Source of the DNA: a virus
IMG/VR virus record: IMGVR_UViG_3300027733_000176
Span: 1 to 27,241 of that record
Reading direction: 5' to 3' (one strand)
DNA length: 27,241 nt
Both the position numbers and the translations under genes were made by a program. This document shows positions 2,804 to 27,241 of this stretch, piece by piece. Under the pieces are notes generated by a model that was not told the origin of the DNA, did not search any database, and saw only the letters and a program-made list of their open reading frames with translations. Position 1 is the first letter of the stretch. Every line of letters starts with the position of its first letter.

Positions 2804-5350
2804 TTAACCTATAAAAAACATAGGTGGTGTATTGTCTCTATACTCTGTAATAAGCACTTTTTCAAGATTATCTTTTTCTGTTAGACCTTGTTGACGTAAG
2901 TCGTTACCATTAACAGACCCTCCACCAAACAATGCAGTTCCATTGTATTTACCTCTTACGTTACCAACAGCTATCATAGTTAATGCTTTTGAGTAGTCAT
3001 ACACCCAGCGCTCTTTGACGAGATCTTTAATAGGTCTTTCAATATAACAACCAACGAGACCTAAATAGCTTTCTTCTGTACGCGGTTCAGGTATGATGCG
3101 TAGGTTTTGTGTTCTATTATCAAAACGAAAGTGTGGTGTTTGTGCTAATACTTTATTGCGAGTATCTACAAACCCTTTAAGTGCTTCCCATGAAACGAGA
3201 TCAAAACCAAAATTACCAACCATATAAGAACTATAAATCTGCTGAGCCATTGCTTGTTCAAGTGTAAACAACGTATTGATACCAGTACTTTCACCTTGAT
3301 TAAAACTAAAACAATCTATTATTTTTCGACATGAAGCTAAGTCGTAATCGTAAAATAAACTAGCGCTTTCAGTACGAGTAAGTGTTGTAAGATTTGGATT
3401 AATATATACACTTGATAAAATAACAGTACCTATAGTACTGGCATTTGTATTTATAAACTGCAAACTTGTACCGCTTTGATACAGAGTACTACCAGTAATA
3501 TAATACGTTAAAGGTGCAATATTAACAAACGGGGTGTTCACAACATATGAAGACAGTGTTACTGTATTAATATTATTTTGTACAATAGTACCTGATAAAC
3601 TATATGTACGGTCTAAGTCAAAATATTCACCTGATTGAATAAGCTTGTTATTAAACAAGTAATAACTATCAGGTAATACACCACCGACAATACCATAACT
3701 TGGCCCAGGTACATCAGCTGTAAGAAAAAACTCAACATCAGTAAGTTGTGTACTTACCGCACAGTCTCCTGCCTCACTATAACCTAAGGGCAAGCTATAA
3801 ACAGAACTACAACTTTTAAATAAGCAGCTATCAGATATATAGTATGTGTTTAAATCAACATTAACTATTTCAATAGAGCGATCAATTACTTCTTCTTGAA
3901 ATGAAACCCCTAAAGGTATATTTGCTGCATATACCGCACCTGCTTCTGTATACGTTGCATCAATGCGAGCTCCACTGCGCCATACTGTAGTACCATTAAG
4001 GTATAAACTATTTGTTACGTTTGATTCAATTGCGTTTAATGTAACATTTACAGAAGTAAGAAAAGGTGTAGAGGTGTATATATTATCTTGTATAAGTTCA
4101 CCTATTAAACTATAACCTTCTGCAAGCTCAGTCGCGTCACCACTTCTATATAATTGTGTTTGACCTTCGATATACTCATTGAAATAAACAGTATCTGGAG
4201 GAACCGGTACAGCAGTTATTTCATTACTAAAAGAATCATAATAAAATTCCGGAAAAACTCTAAGAAGGTTATTATTTATCATCGTGCCTTTTAAACTTAC
4301 TTCTCCTAAATCTCCACCACTATACCATAATTGATTTTGATATATATAGTATGTATTAGAGGGTAGAGAAACTACATTAACATCTCTAACAGCTTGCACG
4401 GTTACAATATCAAATAAAGATAAATTTTGCAGTATTTGAATACCCGCAAACGCTTTACCACCTGGAGATTCATTTAAAGAGCTTTTCCATAAACTATTAC
4501 CATGTACATAGTAATGATCTGTAGGTACGTCTACAACGTTAGCTAGTTCAGTGGTCGTAAAGGTACTTAGCAACGGTGTTGTTATGATTGCCTGTATAAC
4601 TGTACCTTTTGAACTTGTGTCGTTTAATAAATAGCTAGTAGATGAACCGGATTTATACAGTGAACTCTCATGTGTATAGTATGTATAAGGTTCAAGATTT
4701 ACAACATCTACACTAGTTATATTAGTTGTGTAAGTCTCTGGTGTAATAGTGTCTATACTTTCCTGTATTAATTCACCGGTTAAACTTACTGTCTGATTTA
4801 TAGATGAACCTGATTGATAAAGATTACCAGATAGTAAATAGTAATTACCTGTTGTTACTGGAACTACAATCTGTGTAGTTATATAAACCTGTGCAGTTGC
4901 TTGTGTAACATTAGTAAGATATGTTGAACCTATATAGCTTTGAGTAGATTGTATATAACTATCTGTACTTATAGCATTATACACTGTACTGCTAGATGTA
5001 ATATAATAGTAACTATTAACAGGTACTTGTACAATATTTACATTTGTAGTTTTTGCGGAAGATATTGTATATAAACACGTGCTATTTATTAGTTTCTCAA
5101 TGTTTACACCAATTTGAGGTACATATGTCTTAGTATCAAATACCAAGAACTCTTCTGTATACCCTGCATACTTAGTAAAGTACTCTATTGACTCATTAAT
5201 AAAATCTATAAGCTGTTCATCTGTAACTTCTACCTCTACAAGAGGGTAACCAAACATATGTTTTATACGCTTTATCAACCCTTCATACGTCGTGATTGAA
5301 GGGTTTAATTGCGTTGAGCCGGTAAAAGTACTAGGCACTAAATTAGACAT
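2804..5350 (-). CDS. 13: gp13-like neck protein with a ten-repeat insertion
   Basis: This 848-aa protein has an N-terminal segment (about 1-80: ITTYEGLIKRIKHMFGYP, then VEVTDEQLIDFINESIEYF) and a C-terminal segment (about 660-848: PHFRFDNRTQNLRIIPEP, then VYDYSKALTMIAVGNVRGKY and GGGSVNGNDL) that look like the two ends of T4-type gp13 neck proteins. Those seal the packaged head and contact gp14 and the tail. Between them lie about 545 residues made of ten degenerate copies of a 53-61-residue unit with the signature YY(I/V)xxxxLYxSG. Removing them leaves about 303 aa, close to T4 gp13 (309 aa). The repeats are rich in Ser, Thr, Tyr and Val with almost no Lys, as expected of exposed beta structure. 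It follows the portal gene by about 40 nt. The gp13 assignment is from memory of the family; the repeat count is read directly. Confidence 0.75.
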   Translation of the reverse strand: MSNLVPSTFTGSTQLNPSITTYEGLIKRIKHMFGYPLVEVEVTDEQLIDFINESIEYFTKYAGYTEEFLVFDTKTYVPQIGVNIEKLINSTCLYTISSAKTTNVNIVQVPVNSYYYITSSSTVYNAISTDSYIQSTQSYIGSTYLTNVTQATAQVYITTQIVVPVTTGNYYLLSGNLYQSGSSINQTVSLTGELIQESIDTITPETYTTNITSVDVVNLEPYTYYTHESSLYKSGSSTSYLLNDTSSKGTVIQAIITTPLLSTFTTTELANVVDVPTDHYYVHGNSLWKSSLNESPGGKAFAGIQILQNLSLFDIVTVQAVRDVNVVSLPSNTYYIYQNQLWYSGGDLGEVSLKGTMINNNLLRVFPEFYYDSFSNEITAVPVPPDTVYFNEYIEGQTQLYRSGDATELAEGYSLIGELIQDNIYTSTPFLTSVNVTLNAIESNVTNSLYLNGTTVWRSGARIDATYTEAGAVYAANIPLGVSFQEEVIDRSIEIVNVDLNTYYISDSCLFKSCSSVYSLPLGYSEAGDCAVSTQLTDVEFFLTADVPGPSYGIVGGVLPDSYYLFNNKLIQSGEYFDLDRTYSLSGTIVQNNINTVTLSSYVVNTPFVNIAPLTYYITGSTLYQSGTSLQFINTNASTIGTVILSSVYINPNLTTLTRTESASLFYDYDLASCRKIIDCFSFNQGESTGINTLFTLEQAMAQQIYSSYMVGNFGFDLVSWEALKGFVDTRNKVLAQTPHFRFDNRTQNLRIIPEPRTEESYLGLVGCYIERPIKDLVKERWVYDYSKALTMIAVGNVRGKYNGTALFGGGSVNGNDLRQQGLTEKDNLEKVLITEYRDNTPPMFFIG
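3401..5038 (-). repeat. Ten degenerate ~55-aa tandem repeats in the gp13-like gene
   Basis: Conserved tyrosines fall at about residues 115, 170, 224, 280, 334, 389, 450, 503, 563 and 616, a spacing of 53-61. Examples of the core are NYYLLSGNLYQSGSS, TYYTHESSLYKSGSS, HYYVHGNSLWKSS, TYYIYQNQLWYSGG, TYYISDSCLFKSCSS, SYYLFNNKLIQSGE and TYYITGSTLYQSGTS. Each is preceded by a V-x-V-x-x-(L/V)-P-x strand and followed by a (L/I)-x-G-x-(L/V)-I-Q strand. DNA identity between copies is low, so the expansion is old or under diversifying selection. Confidence 0.85.
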
Positions 5351-15179: not shown

Positions 15180-17231
15180 TTAACAGGATGTATCAAAGTA
15201 TTTATACAAAGATGTAAGATTAGACCATAAATATTTTAAACATCTATTAACTACAGCGCTTGTTACTATTTCGTTTTGACCAACAAAAATATCACTCTTT
15301 TGATAAGGTGCATCACCATATACATCGCACCCTACATTACTGTACATTAAACTACTTCTAAACAATTCAATGTTTTCGTACATACGTTGAAAAGCTCTAG
15401 TAAACACCCAGTCTTGCATATATTCCTCTGCATCTATAATAACCTCATCTATAGACCACATATCAACTAGTAATTTTGATGAATCAGTATTCATGTAAGA
15501 TTTACTATTAATATTCATAAGGTCAACATATTTTACAATATAATCATTTGTAACTAAATACAGATTTCTATTTTCATCATGAAACATACTCTTAATATGC
15601 TTTAAGCAGTTTGGTGTACTAATATCTAACGTAGTAAAATTAATACCTGTACGAAAATGTTTAGTTACTTCACTAGAGGAAGATATATATAGTACTTCTT
15701 TATTGTAGTTACTACGTATTCTAACAGGTGTACCTGTTAAGCTATGCGTGTATGTGTCTATTATTTGTTCATTTATTAAGTTTAAAGTCTGTACTGTATT
15801 ACTATATAATAAATGAACAAGATTCTGACTATCAACAGCAATTGATATAGGGGCTGTAGTAAGACTAATAGTTTTTAACCATTCACCACGATACGTATAA
15901 AGCTTTATACAACTGTTACCACTATCATTAACTATAACATTGGAATATATATCAACACATATATCTGTAGGGTTGTTAAACTTATATTTATTTGCACGTG
16001 AACCTATACCGTAGATACTAAAAGTTCTACCCCATTTAAGTAAATTATTTTTCTTAAAGATATAACAAGCTACGCCGTTATTTTCACGATCACATACAAA
16101 CACCCTATTACCTACACCTGATGCAAGAGCTACAACATTTGAAAAAGGTACATCTTTATCTATACCTGTTATTATAGGCATAAACGGAGTAGTGAGTAGA
16201 TTTGTAGAACATGCTCTTACAGTAGTATTAGTAGATGTAAACATAACACCATCACTAACAACAATATCTGTTAATACACAATTGTCATTAAAAGGTATAC
16301 ACGATATTGTACTACCTACAGTTTCTGCAAACCCCCCTAGACCTGGTACATCTACCACATGCCACCTCGCCCCTAAAAAACAATCACCACTAGTCAACAC
16401 CTGTGAATCTGATAATAGATCTAGTATATTGTCTTGTATAGGGTTTACTTGTGCAGTATTAACATTCGTAAAAGTAGAGCATAAGAGATTCTCCCAATGT
16501 GTATCATGAAATTTACTAGTGTAATTATCATTTTGTATGTCTAGCCATGTCTTTTGCTCTGCTGCGTCTGTCTCTAAAAACGCCCATCGCCAATTATAAT
16601 TACTAGTGGCAGATTGATCTGCCAACCCACAGCTTGCTGCATGCCATGAACTACACGTACGAAAAGGGGAAAGTGGTTCAGAGGATAATACCTGACTCCA
16701 AGCAACATCTTTATATAGTGCCTGAGACCACGTCCAATTACCTGAACCACACTCTAATAAACTTTCCTGACCAGCAACACCATACCAGCCAATATACTCA
16801 ATACTCGACTCATCGTAATATCTAGTCTTTGATATTAAGTAGTCTAGATTTTTCTGTATATCTTTTAAGCATTTATTAATATTTGTATTACCTGCCCATG
16901 TATTTGGATATATGAAAGGGACACTTGTAACAGGTGGTGTGAACAAAACGCTCTCCTCACTATATATGTCTACATTAATATTGTCGTATTTGTTTACAAC
17001 TTTAATTATGTTTGGGTAGTTATAAATTTTCGGGAGACTAGTTATTGTGGAAGGTATGTATGCAGATACACTAAAACTCTTTGTACCTACATTCTTATAC
17101 GAAACATCAAAATATTGCGGTATCTCATGTTTTTTATAGTCAAAAATATTACCATCATCAAGATCCACTCTTAAACGAGTCAATCTCTCAGGCATAGTTA
17201 TTAAATTGTCTACTCGTATTTTAAAGGTCAT
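15180..17231 (-). CDS. Large tail/baseplate protein with NHL-like propeller and Trp-rich module
   Basis: I do not recognise this 683-aa protein as a known family. Residues 1-100 are beta-rich (MTFKIRVDNLITMPERLTRL). Residues 110-140 form a short helical segment (NINKCLKDIQKNLDYLI). About 163-250 is tryptophan-rich (NWTWSQALYKDVAWSQVL; NYNWRWAFLE; KTWLDIQ; HWENLLC). About 320-600 reads like NHL/beta-propeller blades (NNPTDICVDIYSNVIVNDSG, then CIKLYTYRGEWLKTI and APISIAVDSQNLVHLL). The C-terminus (SAVVNRCLKYLWSNLTSLYK) repeats the earlier helical segment. Its ATG overlaps the upstream stop as ATGA (17228-17231), so the two genes are coupled. Location in a tail cluster next to a fibre suggests a baseplate or adhesion role; that is inference. 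Confidence 0.6.
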   Translation of the reverse strand: MTFKIRVDNLITMPERLTRLRVDLDDGNIFDYKKHEIPQYFDVSYKNVGTKSFSVSAYIPSTITSLPKIYNYPNIIKVVNKYDNINVDIYSEESVLFTPPVTSVPFIYPNTWAGNTNINKCLKDIQKNLDYLISKTRYYDESSIEYIGWYGVAGQESLLECGSGNWTWSQALYKDVAWSQVLSSEPLSPFRTCSSWHAASCGLADQSATSNYNWRWAFLETDAAEQKTWLDIQNDNYTSKFHDTHWENLLCSTFTNVNTAQVNPIQDNILDLLSDSQVLTSGDCFLGARWHVVDVPGLGGFAETVGSTISCIPFNDNCVLTDIVVSDGVMFTSTNTTVRACSTNLLTTPFMPIITGIDKDVPFSNVVALASGVGNRVFVCDRENNGVACYIFKKNNLLKWGRTFSIYGIGSRANKYKFNNPTDICVDIYSNVIVNDSGNSCIKLYTYRGEWLKTISLTTAPISIAVDSQNLVHLLYSNTVQTLNLINEQIIDTYTHSLTGTPVRIRSNYNKEVLYISSSSEVTKHFRTGINFTTLDISTPNCLKHIKSMFHDENRNLYLVTNDYIVKYVDLMNINSKSYMNTDSSKLLVDMWSIDEVIIDAEEYMQDWVFTRAFQRMYENIELFRSSLMYSNVGCDVYGDAPYQKSDIFVGQNEIVTSAVVNRCLKYLWSNLTSLYKYFDTSC

Positions 17232-18712
17232 GATGTTTGCAATACATATTTATTATTAGGGTAAAGAACTACACTCGGTGTAGTATATATATGCCCTGTT
17301 AAACTTGATGTCGTAGAGCTACTAACAGTATTCCAGTCAAAAGTGATACCATTAACGCTTGGTAGCAATGGTATTACAGAGTCGTACCATGCTGTCACCT
17401 CAACTGTAAACATACTATCTTTTTTATTATCAAAATGGTAAGGTACATCTAATTGCCCGTCTACAACAACAGGCAGTGGTAAATAGCTTATATAATTAAA
17501 ATTATTATCTATAATATTACTCTTCCAGTACTGTGAAGTAATAGACCATTGCACTTTCGTTACAGTGTGCTGCACTGGTGAACGTATTATATTTGTAATA
17601 CTTGTAGCAGGTTGCTTTCTCCATTTCTTTTTAAAGTTTCCACCTGAAGAGACATCACTCCATGTATATGGTAGATCTGAAGCAGAATCACCTCGATAAA
17701 AGGTTGACCACTTCCACACCTCACCATACAGCCCCAAACATTCATCTAACTCAACACCATGAAGAGCTGCTTTTAGACTTACATCAAATATTGCTTCTTC
17801 TCTATCAGCCATCAAAATAGGTGAAGGTATATTGTGTTCTATTTTAATCTTGAGTGGTTCGTAACACTTAACATGTATATTTTCTCTATATCGGTTAGGC
17901 TGTAAGTCACTAGAAGTACTATAATAAAAACTATACTGTTTTTTCTCACCTGTTATATCATCAAAATAATAATTTGGTGCTTGTAGATTTAATAGTGTGT
18001 TTGGTATAGTGACTTTTAATTCGACTGGTATATATAATTCTTTACCTTTCTCACTCTTAATTCTCGCAGATGCACGAACACCCGCAGGTGTATTAAATCT
18101 TGTACCGGTCAGTGTAACAACATCATTAACTGTTTGACCTGTTAATACTGTAGCATTATGAATTGGTTCACTTGTAAGTGTCAACATCCATGTGTAGTCA
18201 TAGTTATTTGTATCACTGCTCAAAGCAGAAAATGTTATATTCTCTGTATGACCTTCCCCGTAAAAGCTTACACCGCGCGATCTTTCATAGTTTGTATAAT
18301 CAAGAGTTATTACTGATACACCTGTCTCAAAATAATTAGAAGGCCAACTGATATAATCTGCAACGGGTAACGTATCTAGAAAAACAACAGACATTGTCTT
18401 TGCAAAAGTGTAATATTGTGACCACCCTGCATTCTTACCTGAGCAAAATACTGTAATTGTACTTACACAAGGAGATGTACAAACAAGAGGTATACTTACT
18501 GAATTATATGAATTAAAGAGATTTTCTAATTGATATTTAGTTGAATCTGTGTTCAAACAATACCAGTACGTAGCATCTTCAAGAGTAGACATAGCTCTTA
18601 AAGTTGTAGTATACTCAGCTGACACAATATTTCTAAAAAAACACGTCGAGTTTATAGTGTTTTCATAGTTTAGATAAAAATCTAAAATAAAAGTATCCGG
18701 TGTTGTTAGCAT
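17228..18712 (-). CDS. Beta-rich virion protein with Trp-rich module
   Basis: I do not recognise this 494-aa protein. It is almost entirely beta-rich, with segments that look like Ig-like or PKD-type repeats (for example GRGVSFYGEG-like turns near 147-153 and VLTGTRFNTPAGVRA-like strands near 200-214). At 331-368 it carries EVWKWSTFYR, DLPYTWSDVSSGGNF and KKKWRKQ, closely matching a segment of the 475-aa protein five genes away in this cluster. Trp/Cys content is high for a phage structural protein. It lies 17 bases after the 810-aa gene and overlaps the 683-aa gene by ATGA, so it belongs to one operon. An AAATAATAGAG stretch precedes the ATG, without a convincing SD. Its role is inferred as tail or baseplate. 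Confidence 0.55.
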   Translation of the reverse strand: MLTTPDTFILDFYLNYENTINSTCFFRNIVSAEYTTTLRAMSTLEDATYWYCLNTDSTKYQLENLFNSYNSVSIPLVCTSPCVSTITVFCSGKNAGWSQYYTFAKTMSVVFLDTLPVADYISWPSNYFETGVSVITLDYTNYERSRGVSFYGEGHTENITFSALSSDTNNYDYTWMLTLTSEPIHNATVLTGQTVNDVVTLTGTRFNTPAGVRASARIKSEKGKELYIPVELKVTIPNTLLNLQAPNYYFDDITGEKKQYSFYYSTSSDLQPNRYRENIHVKCYEPLKIKIEHNIPSPILMADREEAIFDVSLKAALHGVELDECLGLYGEVWKWSTFYRGDSASDLPYTWSDVSSGGNFKKKWRKQPATSITNIIRSPVQHTVTKVQWSITSQYWKSNIIDNNFNYISYLPLPVVVDGQLDVPYHFDNKKDSMFTVEVTAWYDSVIPLLPSVNGITFDWNTVSSSTTSSLTGHIYTTPSVVLYPNNKYVLQTS

Positions 18713-18729
18713 CTCTATTATTTAATATA

Positions 18730-21162
18730 CTAATCCCACTCTATTTTTAGTAGTTCAGAATGTGCAGGAGCTACTTTAGCTAAAGACTGTTTTATATAGT
18801 TTTCAACCAATTCTTTTACTTTTACACTATTACTATCAGTTAATTTAGATGTATCAAAGCCTGTTATATGTAATTTATAAAATTGACTTTTTGACCCTGT
18901 TAGTTGATTCTTAAACACTCTTTCAATTGTATCAATAAATTGTATTTTAGATGTAAATACATCCCATACCATATCTTTACATTTAAGGTAAGCGCGTTGA
19001 AATATTGGTAAATACTTCTGAGGTACAACATAGTTATAAAAACGCAAATCATCAAAACAACCATTATAAATTATGTCCTTCACGTCAAGTTCAGCGTTTA
19101 AATTACTATATTTACCATTTGGTGTGCCAACATAAAGAGAATTACATTTATCAAAAGTAAGAAAATATCTTGGAGGTATTTTAATTGAATCTCTCTCAAT
19201 ACCATCTAGATATAACAATGCTTTATTTTTATCAAACGTCACACATACATGATGCCATTGATCTATCTTTAGTAATTCAGAATCTAATCTTAAAGAATAT
19301 GTTTTAAAATTTTCTTTAACTACATCTAACATCGATATATCAAAAGCTAAACTTTTTTTATTATTAAATTTAACAGTGTTAAACACTCTACTCCAATTAT
19401 ACCCACTAAAATCTGCAGTTGTTATTACTTTTATATCTTCTCTTAAAACTTTATCTCCAACTCTATACGGTAAATATAAACTCTTTTGTAAACCACCTTG
19501 GAGATTTATAAAATATACTCTCTTATCAAAACTCGACAACACAGCGGCGTACCATAGGTTTTCACTTGTACTACGCTTGTGTCTATAAATGAATGAAATA
19601 TTTTGTTGTATAAAGTTATTGTTTAATACACCCGTAATATCTCCCAGCTCGACTGTGAAAATTAAACCGCTGTTATCTTTTGAAAGCTTACTAACTTTAT
19701 TAACTTCGTGTACTGCCCATATATACCCTTCAGGGTCTACGTTAAAATTAGTAACACTTGATAATGTATTTATTTTAATGTGATTTTTATATAAGAAAAA
19801 ATCTTTAGATAGATGGTAAAAATCATCACCTATAAACAAACTATTAATATATAAATCAAAAATATGAATATCATTTTTAAAATTAAACACTAAAGATGTT
19901 AATTGACTGCAAATTCTAGGCTTTAATTTAATACTATCTTTATCAAGATCATTGCTTACTGTAATGATATATTTATTAGTTGTAATAATATAATTGTTAT
20001 CTTTATCTACAAAAAGTCTATAACACTCAAGATCACCTTCTTCTGTAAACTTAACAGTGTTTCTCTTGCTGTTCCCTAAGTGATCTACCTTTATTAGAGT
20101 GTGATTCTTATCGTCAAGTATAACTAACATTCTTTCCCCATCTACTGCATAATCTTTAATATTAGTTCCTAAAGAAGTCTGTAAATTTGGAGAAGTATAA
20201 TTGTGAGCTTTGTTATTGAAGCAAAATAAATTGCTATGAGTGCTTTCAGCAATAAAAAAATACGGTGTATATATAAGATTTTCAAAACGCAAGCTGTAAC
20301 CACCATCAAACATATTACCAACAATTTGAGAAGTGTTTATATTTTGCCAATCATCTGATTTAATCCAACACATCATTGTAAAAGATTGTGTGTTGTAGAT
20401 ATCACTGTGTATTATTTTAAATTCAGCGTAAGCTTGATTTGCAAAATCAAGATACTGACGATCCACTTCATTTACGCGAGTCTGTGTGCCCATCATTAAA
20501 TTACCGTCACCTATAACTTGTAACTTATTGTTAAAGCCGCTAGTGTCTATACTAGCATCATCCCAGCTGGTATAATGTAATCGTAATGCAGACAAGGTGT
20601 CATTACCTGACAATGTGTCTATATGTAATGATGCAGACTCTTCACCGACATGAAAATACTCATAAAGGTTGCCACTTTCAAGCATTCTTTCAGAAACAAT
20701 ATCAACAAATCCGTCACCACCTTGAGATATGTACACACTAGAATTATACTGACCTATTACATTACTTTCTGCTGAAAGAGTGCCAGGGTTAAAATAGCGA
20801 TCCATCCAAACAGGCTCTTCACCGCTCACACTTTTAAGCCATGAATAAAACAATTCACCATCTTGCATATAACTTGTACTTCCCCACGGTGTATGTGTAG
20901 AGTAACCTTTTTGATAACTGATAAGTCTATCCGCCATAGCAGGTATAGGGCCTGCAATAGCACCAGCTTCTATTAAACCGCTCGTTGTTATACTCACCTG
21001 TTCTGCAAAGTATGGAAAATGAAACGTTGTACTCGTGTCTTTTTTAAGAACAACCTCTCGAGTATTAGCCTGATACCCAAGTTGTATTTTATCGTGACCA
21101 CCATTCTGTTCTGAACCGGTGAACAATTTATAATACTGTCTTTGTGATGGTATTGTACTCAT
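18730..21162 (-). CDS. LamG-like virion protein with propeller-like insertion
   Basis: This 810-aa protein starts beta-rich and has a motif EPVWMDRYFNPGTLSAES (about 116-133). Residues 231-305 look like the first half of a LamG/concanavalin-like domain (YLDFANQAYAEFKI, SFTMMCWIKSDDWQ, FDGGYSLRFENL), and 620-712 the second half (YSLRLDSELLKIDQWHHVCV, TFDKNKALLYLDGIERDS, NGCFDDLRFYNYVV). Between them are about 310 residues with blade-like repeats (DYAVDGERMLVILDDKNHTL, CYRLFVDKDNNYIITTN, NFNVDPEGYIWAVHEVNKVS). The C-terminus (ELVENYIKQSLAKVAPAHSE, LLKIEWD) resembles endings of other phage baseplate-associated proteins. LamG domains usually bind carbohydrate or protein. Its place in the tail cluster suggests an adhesion role; exact family unknown. 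Confidence 0.65.
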   Translation of the reverse strand: MSTIPSQRQYYKLFTGSEQNGGHDKIQLGYQANTREVVLKKDTSTTFHFPYFAEQVSITTSGLIEAGAIAGPIPAMADRLISYQKGYSTHTPWGSTSYMQDGELFYSWLKSVSGEEPVWMDRYFNPGTLSAESNVIGQYNSSVYISQGGDGFVDIVSERMLESGNLYEYFHVGEESASLHIDTLSGNDTLSALRLHYTSWDDASIDTSGFNNKLQVIGDGNLMMGTQTRVNEVDRQYLDFANQAYAEFKIIHSDIYNTQSFTMMCWIKSDDWQNINTSQIVGNMFDGGYSLRFENLIYTPYFFIAESTHSNLFCFNNKAHNYTSPNLQTSLGTNIKDYAVDGERMLVILDDKNHTLIKVDHLGNSKRNTVKFTEEGDLECYRLFVDKDNNYIITTNKYIITVSNDLDKDSIKLKPRICSQLTSLVFNFKNDIHIFDLYINSLFIGDDFYHLSKDFFLYKNHIKINTLSSVTNFNVDPEGYIWAVHEVNKVSKLSKDNSGLIFTVELGDITGVLNNNFIQQNISFIYRHKRSTSENLWYAAVLSSFDKRVYFINLQGGLQKSLYLPYRVGDKVLREDIKVITTADFSGYNWSRVFNTVKFNNKKSLAFDISMLDVVKENFKTYSLRLDSELLKIDQWHHVCVTFDKNKALLYLDGIERDSIKIPPRYFLTFDKCNSLYVGTPNGKYSNLNAELDVKDIIYNGCFDDLRFYNYVVPQKYLPIFQRAYLKCKDMVWDVFTSKIQFIDTIERVFKNQLTGSKSQFYKLHITGFDTSKLTDSNSVKVKELVENYIKQSLAKVAPAHSELLKIEWD

Positions 21163-21167
21163 ATGTA

Positions 21168-22130
21168 TTATATATACAAAATACCATTGGTGGTATTTAA
21201 TATTGCTCGCGCACTTATATTCTCTGTAACTGTAGTTTCTGTTTCATTATAGAAATTACTAACCACAACACCACCACCTTGAGGTGTGAAGTTAGTCTTT
21301 AAGTTTAATATGTTTAATTCAGTTGTATTGTTTACTATAGCATCTTCAATATTAAAAGAACATAGTACGTTACACGGGGCATTAAATTCTTTGTTGATCT
21401 CAACATCACTATTATGATTTCTTTGACTGATATCCATAAAATATGTAACCCACTTGTTGTCTTGTATAGTGGTCGATATTTCTTCTTTTGAATACGATTT
21501 ATATGTGAATAGATATGGCTGTGGTACAGTTGTACCTAATACAACACCACAAGCTTGTAATATATTATCTTTATTAATACTTAAAAATCTAAAACTATTA
21601 TCTAATTTAATTTTAATAGTTACTACATTATCATATATACGCTCAATAAAAAAATTATAAAAATTACTTTCAATAATAGATAAATCATCACGTTCAACTA
21701 AAGACACAATATATGGATAATATGTATCAACCACAACAAATTTATTATCATAAATAATATTAACACACCCTTCAAGAGTTTCTGACTTTACAACAACAAG
21801 CAAGTCAGTCTCTTGAGATGCATAAAACCTATTCTTAATGTATTTTAGACCGCTTGAAACAGCGTCATTTATATGTAAAGTTATTAAAGTAGGTATAACC
21901 CCTAGTTCTTTAGTGGGTTCTTCAGCTACGATATCTGAGATGTTTATATTGTCCGATAGCACAAGCACACTACCGTTGTTAAGAGAAACATCTTTATAAT
22001 TTTTAAAGATACTATTCTTAGTAATAGCTAAGCCGTTGTTGTAAAAAATGCTCTCAACATTCAAGCTTATGTCACTCTTGATATACTCAAGAGCTATTGG
22101 TTTAAGTTGATCAAAATTTTGTGTTCTCAT
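21168..22130 (-). CDS. Unknown 320-aa beta-rich virion protein
   Basis: I do not recognise it. It opens with a short helix (FDQLKPIALEYIKSDISLNV) and is otherwise rich in Val, Ile, Asn and Tyr strands (SVLVLSDNINISDIVAEE; LLVVVKSETLEGCVNIIYDN; VTIKIKLDNSFRFLSINKD), with a Gly-rich turn TPQGGGVVVSN near the end. It has no transmembrane segment, no enzymatic motif and no Trp-rich module, unlike its neighbours. Its ATG overlaps the upstream stop by ATGA (22127-22130), and the 810-aa gene starts 5 bases after it ends, so it is embedded in the tail operon and likely a structural subunit or adaptor. There is no SD. Confidence 0.55.
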   Translation of the reverse strand: MRTQNFDQLKPIALEYIKSDISLNVESIFYNNGLAITKNSIFKNYKDVSLNNGSVLVLSDNINISDIVAEEPTKELGVIPTLITLHINDAVSSGLKYIKNRFYASQETDLLVVVKSETLEGCVNIIYDNKFVVVDTYYPYIVSLVERDDLSIIESNFYNFFIERIYDNVVTIKIKLDNSFRFLSINKDNILQACGVVLGTTVPQPYLFTYKSYSKEEISTTIQDNKWVTYFMDISQRNHNSDVEINKEFNAPCNVLCSFNIEDAIVNNTTELNILNLKTNFTPQGGGVVVSNFYNETETTVTENISARAILNTTNGILYI

Positions 22131-23554
22131 ACACGTATATTATCTTGTGTTTGTGTTAATAAAGAAGAATCGTAATCTGTAACTATAGATTCTCTTTGTT
22201 GATTTTTAATTAGATTATTCCCAATATAAGTATCAAAATCTTCACCATTAAAACCTACAGAGTTAATAAGTTTACCTTTGTAGTTTTTAATTATATTGGG
22301 TGGTGTATTACTTGACTGCACTTCACTGATATATTCACTATTTAAATCAAATGTATGAAACACTGCATGTTTGTCTATACTTGATGCATATAATATAATA
22401 TCGTTAATTGCGCGAGATTTTAATAAATTAAATGTTCCTTGTTGTAAAGTTACGGCACTAATACTATCTATAACTGTAGATGAATAATCTGATGAGTGAG
22501 TATTACAGCTAACTACTGTTAGTGAAGGGTATAGAGTACTTGTACCACTAACATTATATACATGTGTAACGTCAAAATTTCTTGGGTCTTGAAGGTCAGC
22601 AGAAAAAGAGTTATTGCATGTATATAAGTTTATGTTGTTAGGGTTGAATCTACTAACTGTCAATAAACTAGAACCGTCATTAAAGTCCCATATTATTTTC
22701 TCAATAGGAAAACTACCAGCAACACATCCCTCCGCACTAAAAATAGCTGTTAGCGGGCTTGTCTTGGATGTTAATGACCTATAAAAAATGTTTGCTGTAG
22801 GGGCAATCTCCTTTACATACACTATACAATCATGTCTTGTAACTTGAGTGTATAGTGTACTTAATATATATGAATATGTAGTCAGCTTGCAATCTTCATG
22901 ACCTTGAGGTGCCCATGTTTTTGCGTATGATGCACCATAGGAAGTTTCTGACCATCTTAATGGTGTATTTGATAAAGAATTTAAATAATCCCACGACCAC
23001 ACCTTACAATATGCATCTATACATTGTTCGGGAGATGTCCATGTCTTTACAAAAGCTTTAGGGTTTAACAGAGAATACTCCTTAGTATTCTCAAGCCAGG
23101 TGGTATCGTTTTCTTTACTGCTTGTCATATCACTCCACCCCCACATACGTTTATCTTCCCTACATACATCATACTTACCGTCACCTACACTATTCGGGAA
23201 CACCTTAAAAACTTCACGAGCAATATAACTAATTCTATATGAACCAGGCATAACAAACGTGTGTGTTATTTGATCAGCTTCACTAAGTGCAAAAGAACTT
23301 TTTGTTTGACCACTATTGTATGAATCATTAAAATCAATCTCTATAAAAGTATCTAACACTTGTGTTGTGCTTGCAGATTGAGTGTATGTTTGACCACCGA
23401 CTTGAAAGAGAACACACATATACGGTGCATAACCGGTTATATACGATGTGTCGATATTATTATATATCGTATTAGATATACAAGGTACGCCAGTGTCCCA
23501 GCTGTATTCTGGTGTAACTGTAGTGTGAGATTTTATTTGTAGTGAGAAAGACAT
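22127..23554 (-). CDS. PKD-like virion protein with tandem Trp-rich module
   Basis: This 475-aa protein has two PKD-like segments: one at about 30-115 (DTFIEIDFNDSYNSGQ, ITHTFVMPGSYRISYIARE) and one at about 250-350 (FPIEKIIWDFNDGSSLLTV, DVTHVYNVSGTSTLYPSLTV). PKD domains are Ig-like folds common in surface and carbohydrate-contacting proteins. Between them are two Trp-rich units: 137-172 (MWGWSDMTSS, TTWLEN, AFVKTWTSPEQ) and 184-217 (KVWSWDYLNS, LRWSETSYGASYAKTWAPQ). The second matches the 494-aa protein of this cluster. The C-terminal quarter is polar without a recognisable domain. It follows the 1223-aa gene by 1 base and overlaps the next by ATGA. An adhesion or tail-decoration role is inferred. 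Confidence 0.6.
   Translation of the reverse strand: MSFSLQIKSHTTVTPEYSWDTGVPCISNTIYNNIDTSYITGYAPYMCVLFQVGGQTYTQSASTTQVLDTFIEIDFNDSYNSGQTKSSFALSEADQITHTFVMPGSYRISYIAREVFKVFPNSVGDGKYDVCREDKRMWGWSDMTSSKENDTTWLENTKEYSLLNPKAFVKTWTSPEQCIDAYCKVWSWDYLNSLSNTPLRWSETSYGASYAKTWAPQGHEDCKLTTYSYILSTLYTQVTRHDCIVYVKEIAPTANIFYRSLTSKTSPLTAIFSAEGCVAGSFPIEKIIWDFNDGSSLLTVSRFNPNNINLYTCNNSFSADLQDPRNFDVTHVYNVSGTSTLYPSLTVVSCNTHSSDYSSTVIDSISAVTLQQGTFNLLKSRAINDIILYASSIDKHAVFHTFDLNSEYISEVQSSNTPPNIIKNYKGKLINSVGFNGEDFDTYIGNNLIKNQQRESIVTDYDSSLLTQTQDNIRV
22818..22859. repeat. Inverted repeat (11-bp arms, 20-nt loop) in coding sequence
   Basis: TACACTATACA and TGTATAGTGTA are perfect complements 20 bases apart, inside the PKD-like gene. 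The arms are A/T-rich, so chance occurrence is plausible in a 27-kb AT-rich window. Confidence 0.6.
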
Positions 23555-23555
23555 A

Positions 23556-26500
23556 TTATACTCGATGTATTATTGTTAAAGTTGTGTATTTATATTCATG
23601 CCCGCTGTCTCTCTCCCTATACTTAAGATTAATAAATATACTATTCTGCTCGTTGAGAGTTACTGTTAATTTATTCTTTGCATAGACAATGTTATCTACA
23701 GATACACTACATCTATCAATAATAATTTCAATATTTTTATTTAAAAATTCGTCTTTTAAAATCTTATTAATTGTAATAGATTTATTAGTTCTTGTATTAA
23801 CATGATGTATTAATGATTCAAATATATTGTCATTAATATTAGTTATTACATCTATATCTTGAAGAATATTAATTGAATTCACATTGTAATTATAGTTGTC
23901 TACACTTATTACTATAACTGTACTCTGTAGTTTATTGTTTATATATTGTATAGTTAAGATATATCTTGAAGTGTTGAGATCTTTACACAACAATATTTCT
24001 TCTATAGAACTTACATCAACTAATTCATGTAATAGATGTTCGTTTAATTTTCTTGTATTTAAATTATACATTAAAAGACTGACAGTATTCTTGTTAATAT
24101 CTACTGCTGCATAACTAAGTTCTTTTTGAATTATATCAAACCACAATAAACTTACTTTCTTATTAAGTTTAGATATTAAAACACTATCAATACTATTATT
24201 GTATATAATAGATGTATTGTAGTTATATTGTAACTGGTCAAAGCATATGTAATTTTCTGTCTCAAATACTGCTGTATTTATATGTACAGAAATATTCTGT
24301 AATTTTTCATACAACTCATTCTGCACTTGTGTAGATTTATTTTCAAAAACACCAGACAACGAAGTGAAGCTACTTTCAATGAAACCACTTTCTTTTCTAA
24401 CCCACAACTCTCCAAAACTTTTTATATTAAAGCTGTCACCACTCTTATATAGAGCGTATTGATTACCATATATATCTGACTCTAGTTTATACTGCAATAA
24501 CCCATTAATTTTAAATATCTTAGATTCTAGCCAAACATTAGTATCAACAAGCCCTATCTTATTATCAAACTTAAATGAATCGTCTGACCATTTCTCTGCA
24601 TTTCTAAAATCATCCCAAGGCGATTGCCGAAAAGTATTAGAAGCTATACCTATGTTATTACTTCTTAGTACTTCTTGAGTAGATTTATACGGTATAAAAG
24701 ATTGATGTTCTTTATATACGCTCTTATGTATATTTCCTGCTGCTGCCTGCGATGCAAGCGGTTCCTTTAACCAAGAACTGTCCTCACCTGTTACCTCAAA
24801 AAGACAATCATCACCACCAAGATTGCCTGATAGTGTTACAAACGAATTGTGTGACAGACTTTTTAATTGTGTGTGTATATCTACACCAACAAACACCGGC
24901 ATACCCAAAGATGTAGGCGTGAAATATCGCTCTGTTGATTCTTTTAGATTTGTAAAAACTGGGTATGTAGCTATTGTGGCCACTTCTCGTGATAGTAGAT
25001 TTTTATACGGAGTAAACGCGGAGACCTCTGTTGTCCAGCTTATACTACTATTACTACCAACATTACTATCTATTGCTGTTAGGTCAAAGGTCCAGGATGT
25101 AGGGTCTTGAGAATAGTAATATACTTCTTGCTGCTTGGCGTTTGTGTATGTGTGAAATACTATATCAGTTGTGGTATTAGTAGCAGAAATACGCGTACTA
25201 TTTGATGTAATAATATCTACACTTTGAGCACTTGTGTCAATTGCTAACTTTTTCCATTCTATAAGATTTACACTTGAAAGTAAAGAAATATCTTCTGTCC
25301 ATGTAAATATATTATCATGGTTATTATTAATTTGTAATATTTTTTCGTATTGAAGCGTTAGATCTGAAAACTCAAAACTGTAGTCAATATTACTTTCGTT
25401 ATCATACTTAATTCTATCTCCACCTACTAATACATTACCTCTATCAGGAGTTTTCAGCCAGAAAGGTCTTGCTCCATAACTCACTCCATCGTATCTACGA
25501 GATGCATAATTCCAACCAAATAGAGGTACTTTAAAATTGAACCCACAAGGTGTGTAGGTGTTTGCTAAGGTTACGCTTTCTAGTACTGTGGGATTAACAG
25601 CTGTAATGGCTGGTATACCATATACTGTGTTAGTTTCTTCATTAAAAGAAAAGGGCATTGCAACATCAACTTCTTGAGTATTGTATATGGTCTGAAATAC
25701 AGGTACATCTATAGTTACTTCCTGTTCTTTTAACGTAAAATATACACCTGATTGAAGTACCAGCTCTATATTAAGATCTACAGACTTAACTATATTATAT
25801 TCTAGCTGATTTTGCGGTGCTATCGGCGTAACAATAACATCTATACCAGTTACATTTAAAGTGTTTACATTACCCCACAAAGGTACAGGTATAGTATAAA
25901 CTGTTGACAATGAACCGTTACCAATTAACGTGTTGTGTGTATGTATTAATGTAGTTAAACTTACACCAGACACACGACCTGTCATATTACTTATTTGCGC
26001 GCTATTTATAACTGTCTCTGTTGTAAATAAATTAACATCACTGACACGCACCGTCAAGCTTGATAAAATTGAACTAAATGTTAACTTAGAACTACTAGTA
26101 TAAGTTGTAATATCTACATCTGCTATACCAGTCGACAGCTCTGTTCCAATTGTAACTGTTTGAGGCACACTGCTAAGTACAACACCACTCATCTCTATAC
26201 AATACAGACCTGTGTACATTGGTGTAAATGAAAATACAGGCGTGTTGTTATACAATTGTACAGCTGAAGGTTGAATAGTATTGATGTCTTTTAAATCTAA
26301 AGTATCAAAATAACTCAAACTCCAACTTACTGTCTTTAACTGTGACACATCAAACGCAGGTGTTTGTTCTGGTGTAACAGGCACACTATCTGTAGGCAGG
26401 GGTGTAGATACAACTATTGGTATAGAATTACCAATAGAAATTTTATCATAAGACCATGCACTAGATATTGTTTCAAGTATCTCTTGCGGTACAGCATAAC

Positions 26501-27227
26501 TACTAATAGTGTTGTATGTAACACTATTAGCTCTATCATACATAATATAATTACCTGGATATAATTGTATATCTGTACCTGTACCTACACTACTCAGCCA
26601 TTCGCCATTACTGTCAATAACAAGATCAACCCATTTTGCTGTTCTATAAGCTTTATCAAAACTATATGTTTTTCTCAAGAACGGCATAATCTTATCACCA
26701 CTATCTTGATCACCGTAATTTGTTCTATAATAACAATAACATCTTCCAGCACTTAAAGTGAAATCATTTGTCCACTTACCGTCACCCCAGCTATAAGGAG
26801 TCCTTGTTTGATACCACGCAAAGTTCTTACTGCTTTTGTAATCATTACTATCTTCAATGCCTCTCCATGTACGTAAGTTAATTACTGGTTGTAGCGAGTC
26901 TACAAGCATTATACTATCTGCTAGTCTATTATGCTCATCATATGAGAGACCGTTATGACCAAAACTCGTGTTGTACACTTGCTTGCATGTGCACGAGACT
27001 GCATCTACGTATGTAAGTTTATTTTTAAAATATGTACATTCCTGTGTATGTTTTTTATTTCCAAAGACTAACGAAATAGGTATGTTGGGGCCAGTCCAAA
27101 CAAATATACTATACTCATTAGGATCTACTCTAAGACTAAACCCTGGCTGTTGTATATATTCAACATCTACAGAACTCACAGACTCTCCACTCAGCCAAGC
27201 AGCGCCAATTATAGACTGAGTAGGCAT
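23556..27227 (-). CDS. Giant 1223-aa virion protein
   Basis: I do not recognise a named family. The N-terminal 250 residues are Cys/Trp/Tyr-rich (CTCKQVYNTSFG, FAWYQTRTPYSWGDGKW, GRCYCYYRTNYG). Residues about 250-600 are a long run of Ser/Thr/Val beta strands, probably Ig-like repeats. The region around 770-905 contains RYFTPTSLGMPVFVGV, SSWLKEPLASQAAAGN and a Trp-rich unit at 869-902 (SPWDDFRNAEKWSDDSF, VDTNVWLES). The last 320 residues are Asn/Ile/Tyr-rich strands resembling a propeller or solenoid (ISKLNKKVSLLWFDI, LNTSRYILTIQYINN). I recall similar YFxPxxLG and SSWLKE runs in large uncharacterised phage proteins. It has no signal peptide or catalytic motif. The ATG at 27227 lies 14 bases from the window edge. 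It is likely the first visible gene of a tail/baseplate operon. Confidence 0.6.
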   Translation of the reverse strand: MPTQSIIGAAWLSGESVSSVDVEYIQQPGFSLRVDPNEYSIFVWTGPNIPISLVFGNKKHTQECTYFKNKLTYVDAVSCTCKQVYNTSFGHNGLSYDEHNRLADSIMLVDSLQPVINLRTWRGIEDSNDYKSSKNFAWYQTRTPYSWGDGKWTNDFTLSAGRCYCYYRTNYGDQDSGDKIMPFLRKTYSFDKAYRTAKWVDLVIDSNGEWLSSVGTGTDIQLYPGNYIMYDRANSVTYNTISSYAVPQEILETISSAWSYDKISIGNSIPIVVSTPLPTDSVPVTPEQTPAFDVSQLKTVSWSLSYFDTLDLKDINTIQPSAVQLYNNTPVFSFTPMYTGLYCIEMSGVVLSSVPQTVTIGTELSTGIADVDITTYTSSSKLTFSSILSSLTVRVSDVNLFTTETVINSAQISNMTGRVSGVSLTTLIHTHNTLIGNGSLSTVYTIPVPLWGNVNTLNVTGIDVIVTPIAPQNQLEYNIVKSVDLNIELVLQSGVYFTLKEQEVTIDVPVFQTIYNTQEVDVAMPFSFNEETNTVYGIPAITAVNPTVLESVTLANTYTPCGFNFKVPLFGWNYASRRYDGVSYGARPFWLKTPDRGNVLVGGDRIKYDNESNIDYSFEFSDLTLQYEKILQINNNHDNIFTWTEDISLLSSVNLIEWKKLAIDTSAQSVDIITSNSTRISATNTTTDIVFHTYTNAKQQEVYYYSQDPTSWTFDLTAIDSNVGSNSSISWTTEVSAFTPYKNLLSREVATIATYPVFTNLKESTERYFTPTSLGMPVFVGVDIHTQLKSLSHNSFVTLSGNLGGDDCLFEVTGEDSSWLKEPLASQAAAGNIHKSVYKEHQSFIPYKSTQEVLRSNNIGIASNTFRQSPWDDFRNAEKWSDDSFKFDNKIGLVDTNVWLESKIFKINGLLQYKLESDIYGNQYALYKSGDSFNIKSFGELWVRKESGFIESSFTSLSGVFENKSTQVQNELYEKLQNISVHINTAVFETENYICFDQLQYNYNTSIIYNNSIDSVLISKLNKKVSLLWFDIIQKELSYAAVDINKNTVSLLMYNLNTRKLNEHLLHELVDVSSIEEILLCKDLNTSRYILTIQYINNKLQSTVIVISVDNYNYNVNSINILQDIDVITNINDNIFESLIHHVNTRTNKSITINKILKDEFLNKNIEIIIDRCSVSVDNIVYAKNKLTVTLNEQNSIFINLKYRERDSGHEYKYTTLTIIHRV

Positions 27228-27241
27228 TCTAAAATTCTTAC

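Follow-up and report, generated by a model that had tools for sequence, protein, structure and literature searches.

A cysteine/four-tryptophan module carried by Ig-like tail-cluster proteins in a clade of uncultivated T4-like phages

We set out to determine what relates the tryptophan-rich stretches that recur in the tail proteins of an uncultivated virus, how such stretches came to lie in different genes, and what they might do there. The window, meaning the whole stretch of DNA analysed, comprises 27,241 nucleotides of IMG/VR record IMGVR_UViG_3300027733_000176. It is a fragment of a T4-like phage, with genes for the portal, maturation protease, head closure and head-tail adaptor proteins; its portal matches phrog_213 (E 3e-98) and is 26–28% identical to T4-like portals. 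The tail genes are clustered on the minus strand. The proteins and module slots concerned are as follows.

22127–23554, minus strand: p475, a 475-aa protein with two PKD (Ig-like) domains; modules A and B are inserted in PKD1
23201–23554, minus strand: N-terminal part of PKD1, residues 1–118, strands up to F (AlphaFold2 model; Pfam PKD)
23024–23164, minus strand: module slot A, residues 131–177, diverged (slot-A profile, alignment)
22889–23023, minus strand: module slot B, residues 178–222, intact (profile, BLASTP, tree)
22805–22858, minus strand: PKD1 strand G, residues 233–250 (AlphaFold2 model; empty-site homologues L075 and L076)
22454–22804, minus strand: PKD2, residues 251–367 (structure match 4jrw)
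18730–21162, minus strand: p810, an 810-aa protein with a LamG-like domain and no module, used for the phage tree
17228–18712, minus strand: p494, a 494-aa protein, a rod of Ig/FN3-like domains
17285–17860, minus strand: Ig/FN3-like domain, residues 285–476, bearing slot C (AlphaFold2 model, 4kkq match)
17603–17740, minus strand: module slot C, residues 325–370, intact (profile, BLASTP, tree)
15180–17231, minus strand: p683, a 683-aa protein with an NHL-type propeller towards its C-terminus
16632–16751, minus strand: decayed partial slot c', residues 161–200 (positional alignment; profile)
16479–16631, minus strand: decayed slot D, residues 201–251 (positional alignment; shuffle test)

Residues 325–370 of p494 and 178–222 of p475 are homologous copies of one module, with a significant profile score and four tryptophans each. 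BLASTP among 13 window proteins, run without composition adjustment, aligned p494 323–367 with p475 176–217 (E 6e-6), and HMMs built from the single slot B and slot C copies found each other at E 2e-5 and 5e-6 (15–17 bits). As a control, 400 window-shuffled versions of each tail protein were scored with a five-copy profile, and the top score was at most 8.7 bits. The pairing of p494 331–368 with p475 184–217 that a sequence-only reading had proposed is thus borne out, and profile searches among the window's proteins matched p494 and p475 significantly in both directions. The further copy which that reading placed upstream in p475, at 137–172, is real but diverged: slot A scored 13.9 bits with a slot-A profile built without the window, a score reached by none of 2000 shuffles, and only 8.4 bits with the general module profile.

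The looser copies suggested at residues 163–250 of p683 gain support from position, as residues 161–251 align with two module slots, c' and D, of orthologous proteins, but they are weak in sequence. On its own sequence the region scored 10.1 bits (3 of 2000 shuffles scored as high), and 5.7 bits with the slot-D profile alone (18 of 2000); the c' copy was also picked up by a profile whose training set included it, and in whole-protein profile scans both copies fell below significance. We read c' and D as decayed copies, mainly by position. Two stretches proposed in p1223, at residues 137–155 and 869–902, found no support: they gave noise-level scores with every module profile, and although p1223 has many long homologues, no module match was found in any of their reading frames. 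Chance resemblance between tryptophan-rich stretches fits these p1223 segments; for slots A to C it is refuted by the profile scores, the shuffles and the 88-copy family described below, and given the cross-detection of the main copies we assign it a vanishingly small probability. The p1223 gene (23556–27241, minus strand) is probably cut by the window edge; its homologues match from about their residue 560, p1223 residue 7 aligning, for example, with residue 572 of the L081 frame.

Viral scans with single p475, p494 or p810 sequences returned no relatives and alignments were needed, so the portal was taken as the start of the search. It led to 33 contigs, including one of 218 kb, G002, with an orthologous tail cluster. 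Alignments with G002 seeded wider scans, in which homologues of p475 turned up on 16 contigs and those of p810 on 80, and a later scan found a few more module-bearing contigs of the same kind. Across the reading frames of 159 loci, an iterated profile counted 88 module copies in 43 frames at E < 1e-3, carried by about two dozen uncultivated T4-like phages. Among named phages, p475, p494, the L081 p475 and the L079 p810 had no relative, and a 53-aa module query gave chance-level matches only (E 6–8). In GTDB genomes neither the module nor p810 had a relative that could be confirmed, so these genomes offered no hint of the host. Among the sequences reached, and as judged by profile matches, the module is confined to one clade of uncultivated T4-like phages. 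Two more distant contigs of about 110 kb (G030 and G031, loci L077 and L078) carry modules in two further proteins, with frames of 939 and 1468 aa.

The module is about 44 residues long, with the consensus C-x4-[CG]-x2-W-x-W-x~12-W-x~12-W and conserved positions C1, W9, W11, W25 and W38. All four tryptophans are kept in 76 of 76 aligned full-length copies, the window's diverged slot A among them, a figure that is partly a selection effect because the profile picked full-length hits; nearly all of the same 76 keep the first cysteine. The spacing from the third to the fourth tryptophan is 12 in every one of the 20 B copies and in all but one of the 15 D copies; that from the second to the third is 12–13 throughout slot D and in 15 of the 20 B copies. 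Slots A and C are variable: the second-to-third and third-to-fourth spacings range over 9–19 and 12–26 in A, and over 14–40 and 12–34 in C.

AlphaFold2 models of p475 (built with 20 homologues) and p494 (built with 17) both insert the modules between adjacent strands of Ig-like domains. In p475, A and B lie between strands 104–118 and 233–248 of PKD1, with strand G closing the domain C-terminal to them, and from strand order we assign them to what would be the F-G hairpin loop. The PKD2 model matches the PKD fold of 4jrw (Z 9.7, rmsd 2.1 over 87 residues). Pfam PKD (PF18911/PF00801) is found in 20 of 20 p475 family members at E ≤ 0.01, the best at 1.7e-12; the window's p475 alone gives E 0.0014, under the gathering score. 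Homologues of p475 usually carry two tandem copies, A and B. Those of L073 and L082 have slot B only, and in L075 and L076 the same PKD1 has its F-G loop closed, with neither A nor B. The L073 homologue (L073:9977–11812) also ends, C-terminal to slot B, in a legume lectin domain (PF00139, E 1.2e-24).

The p494 model is a string of Ig/FN3-like domains in which slot C falls between strands 307–316 and 381–393, a position that by strand order would correspond to the B-C loop of an FN3-like domain. Residues 285–476 match 4kkq (RbmA) with Z 8.7 and rmsd 2.7 over 102 residues, near the background Z of such searches. Whole-model PDB matches to complement and alpha-2-macroglobulin proteins were read as generic Ig-like strings and set aside. 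Within both models, module residues mostly have pLDDT below 50, about 30–40 for most.

It had been suggested that the tail proteins are otherwise unlike each other, and this needs correction for one pair: in most relatives p494 and p683 correspond to the N-terminal and second half of a single chain, next to each other. The fused counterpart has one CYDKYG-type C, a partial c', a full D and then the NHL propeller. In the window the two are separate genes, the p494 stop overlapping the p683 start (ATGA, 17228–17231). In G002 (L044:8411–13384) the chain breaks inside the c' region, which is interrupted by a stop codon and by a glycine-rich domain (PF21722, E 8.5e-11); slot D follows in a new reading frame, where the chain continues.

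How the copies came to be distributed can be read from a tree of 75 of them, on which the labels of the four slots need 3 changes, the minimum (shuffled mean 41.4), and phage labels need 69. The alignment has 42 columns, many forks are unresolved and the window copies sit on long branches; sorting by slot is nonetheless clear, and the copies are therefore old duplicates, each inherited in its own slot. On this evidence the duplications that created the slots predate the divergence of the clade, with vertical inheritance since. A p810 tree of 55 loci, midpoint-rooted and with some long branches that meet, shows a single change in module presence (20 with, 35 without). Module-less relatives retain p810 and the C-terminal part of p683; the contig stretches examined showed no homologue of p475 or p494. 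L075 and L076 fall within the module-bearing clade and therefore most likely lost A and B. No slot D was found in them either; slot C is present twice in one and four times in the other. As we reconstruct it from these sequences, one sub-lineage combines clean slot losses with multiplication of slot C, that is, lineage-specific loss and tandem gain.

The module had been called mobile or duplicated. Duplication stands, the module being shared between tail proteins, but mobility as the usual mode is rejected by the slot sorting. Occupied and empty slots among relatives, the tandem C copies of L075 and L076 and the modules in two proteins of the distant L077 and L078 contigs might all be expected of an element that still moves between tail genes, yet with so few changes of slot against so many of phage, and one presence change on the p810 tree, we consider continuing movement very improbable.

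What, then, might the module do? The B-C and F-G loops of the Ig fold lie at the same pole, that of antibody CDR1 and CDR3 and of the fibronectin RGD loop. Going by the models and Ig topology, A and B (F-G loop) and C (B-C loop) would therefore occupy the same pole of their domains. The tryptophans may form the core of a self-folding microdomain capping the Ig-like domain, perhaps with a disulfide added where a slot combines C1 and C6 with a cysteine further downstream, and the microdomain would present two loops, between the second and third and between the third and fourth tryptophans. Several copies along the fibre could act jointly as an avidity surface, whose target would most likely be a conserved host-envelope component. 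The microdomain, its core and its loops are inferred, the module regions of both models being of low confidence. Adhesin-type domains occur nearby, namely the legume lectin in L073, the glycine-rich domain in G002, LCCL in L066 and LamG in p810. As an overall explanation we tentatively favour a slot-inherited microdomain forming a multi-copy avidity surface, most likely for host binding, while holding it at slightly under an even chance. Among three candidate roles for the module, a multi-copy host-binding surface is likewise the most probable, at close to even probability.

Evolutionary rate counts against host binding. Mean identity in closer pairs is 0.44–0.50 for the modules, 0.49 for PKD1, 0.57 for PKD2 and 0.32 for the C-terminus, so that modules evolve at about the PKD1 rate; host-range tips often evolve faster. 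Conservation that resembles scaffold domains and is not hypervariable would suit an assembly joint, in which A and B contact C and D, or all contact a constant virion partner, locking tail chains together. So would the presence of modules on both proteins in almost every phage in which the two were observed, the fixed slot positions and the nearly fixed lengths of B and D. A joint sits poorly, however, with L075 and L076, which keep two to four C copies without A, B or a detected D, with L073 and L082, which lack slot A, and with the phages that lack modules yet possess p810 and the C-terminal part of p683. An avidity surface would tolerate the loss of A and B alongside two or four C copies more readily than a one-to-one joint, an argument drawn from two related contigs only. 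We regard the assembly joint as unlikely, if still a serious contender. The invariant C1, W9, W11, W25 and W38 look core-like, and with a rate equal to that of the carrier domain they would suit a structural cap or spacer that only stabilises or lengthens the Ig-like domains and binds no ligand. Against this, the PKD domain occurs without a module in L075 and L076, and the module occurs both as tandem copies and in Ig-like loops of two kinds; we consider a purely structural role rather improbable.

Searches of Pfam, PHROGs and the PDB gave no significant or consistent match to the module (best isolated E 0.018–0.35), which is no proof of a new fold. A PDB profile hit to the YC-VW-W stretch of the SMAD MH1 domain (E 0.16–0.5) was judged to be chance. 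WW, TSP1 and CBM5/12 domains are small tryptophan-dependent microdomains with one or more conserved tryptophan pairs. The module resembles them in being small, tryptophan-dependent and built around conserved pairs, but its spacing, WxW-x12-W-x12-W after a cysteine, presumably differs from all three, and none of the Pfam WW, TSP1 and CBM5/12 models reached E 1 on module sequences. A literature search found no description of a Cys/four-Trp module.

The setting is familiar, since Ig-like adhesins have precedents among phages, T4 Hoc and the Ig-like proteins of gut phages both serving in adhesion (PMC13370021). As in those proteins, the domains that carry the module are of PKD or Ig/FN3-like type and belong to the virion. 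Unlike them, the carriers hold a 44-aa Cys/four-Trp insert in the B-C or F-G loop, which was not met in our searches, and unlike Hoc they come from the tail cluster of T4-like phages and do not decorate the capsid; their role in adhesion is putative. The Gly_rich_2 and legume lectin domains accompany or interrupt module-bearing proteins in G002 and L073; they are separate domains in single relatives, absent from the window's copies. The inserted module family thus appears undescribed, in a familiar setting. A bolder possibility, which we hold with less assurance than the host-binding role, is an undescribed domain family, possibly a new microfold, serving one clade of phages as a portable cap in the CDR-like B-C and F-G loops of Ig-like tail domains and forming a multi-copy host-binding surface. 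If the reading given here is right, it would extend the known components of phage tail adhesins by a domain family and give a clear case of the same inserted microdomain in one-pole Ig-like loops of two proteins. The natural variants, whose PKD loop holds two modules, one or none, make the module's role testable, and tail proteins that lacked annotation in a widespread uncultivated group of T4-like phages are placed in two real protein families.

Elsewhere in the window, only the last ~160 residues of an 848-aa protein (2804–5350, minus strand) match the head-tail adaptor Ad2 family (phrog_211); the remainder looks repetitive, with a recurring YY..(S)LYxSG pattern.
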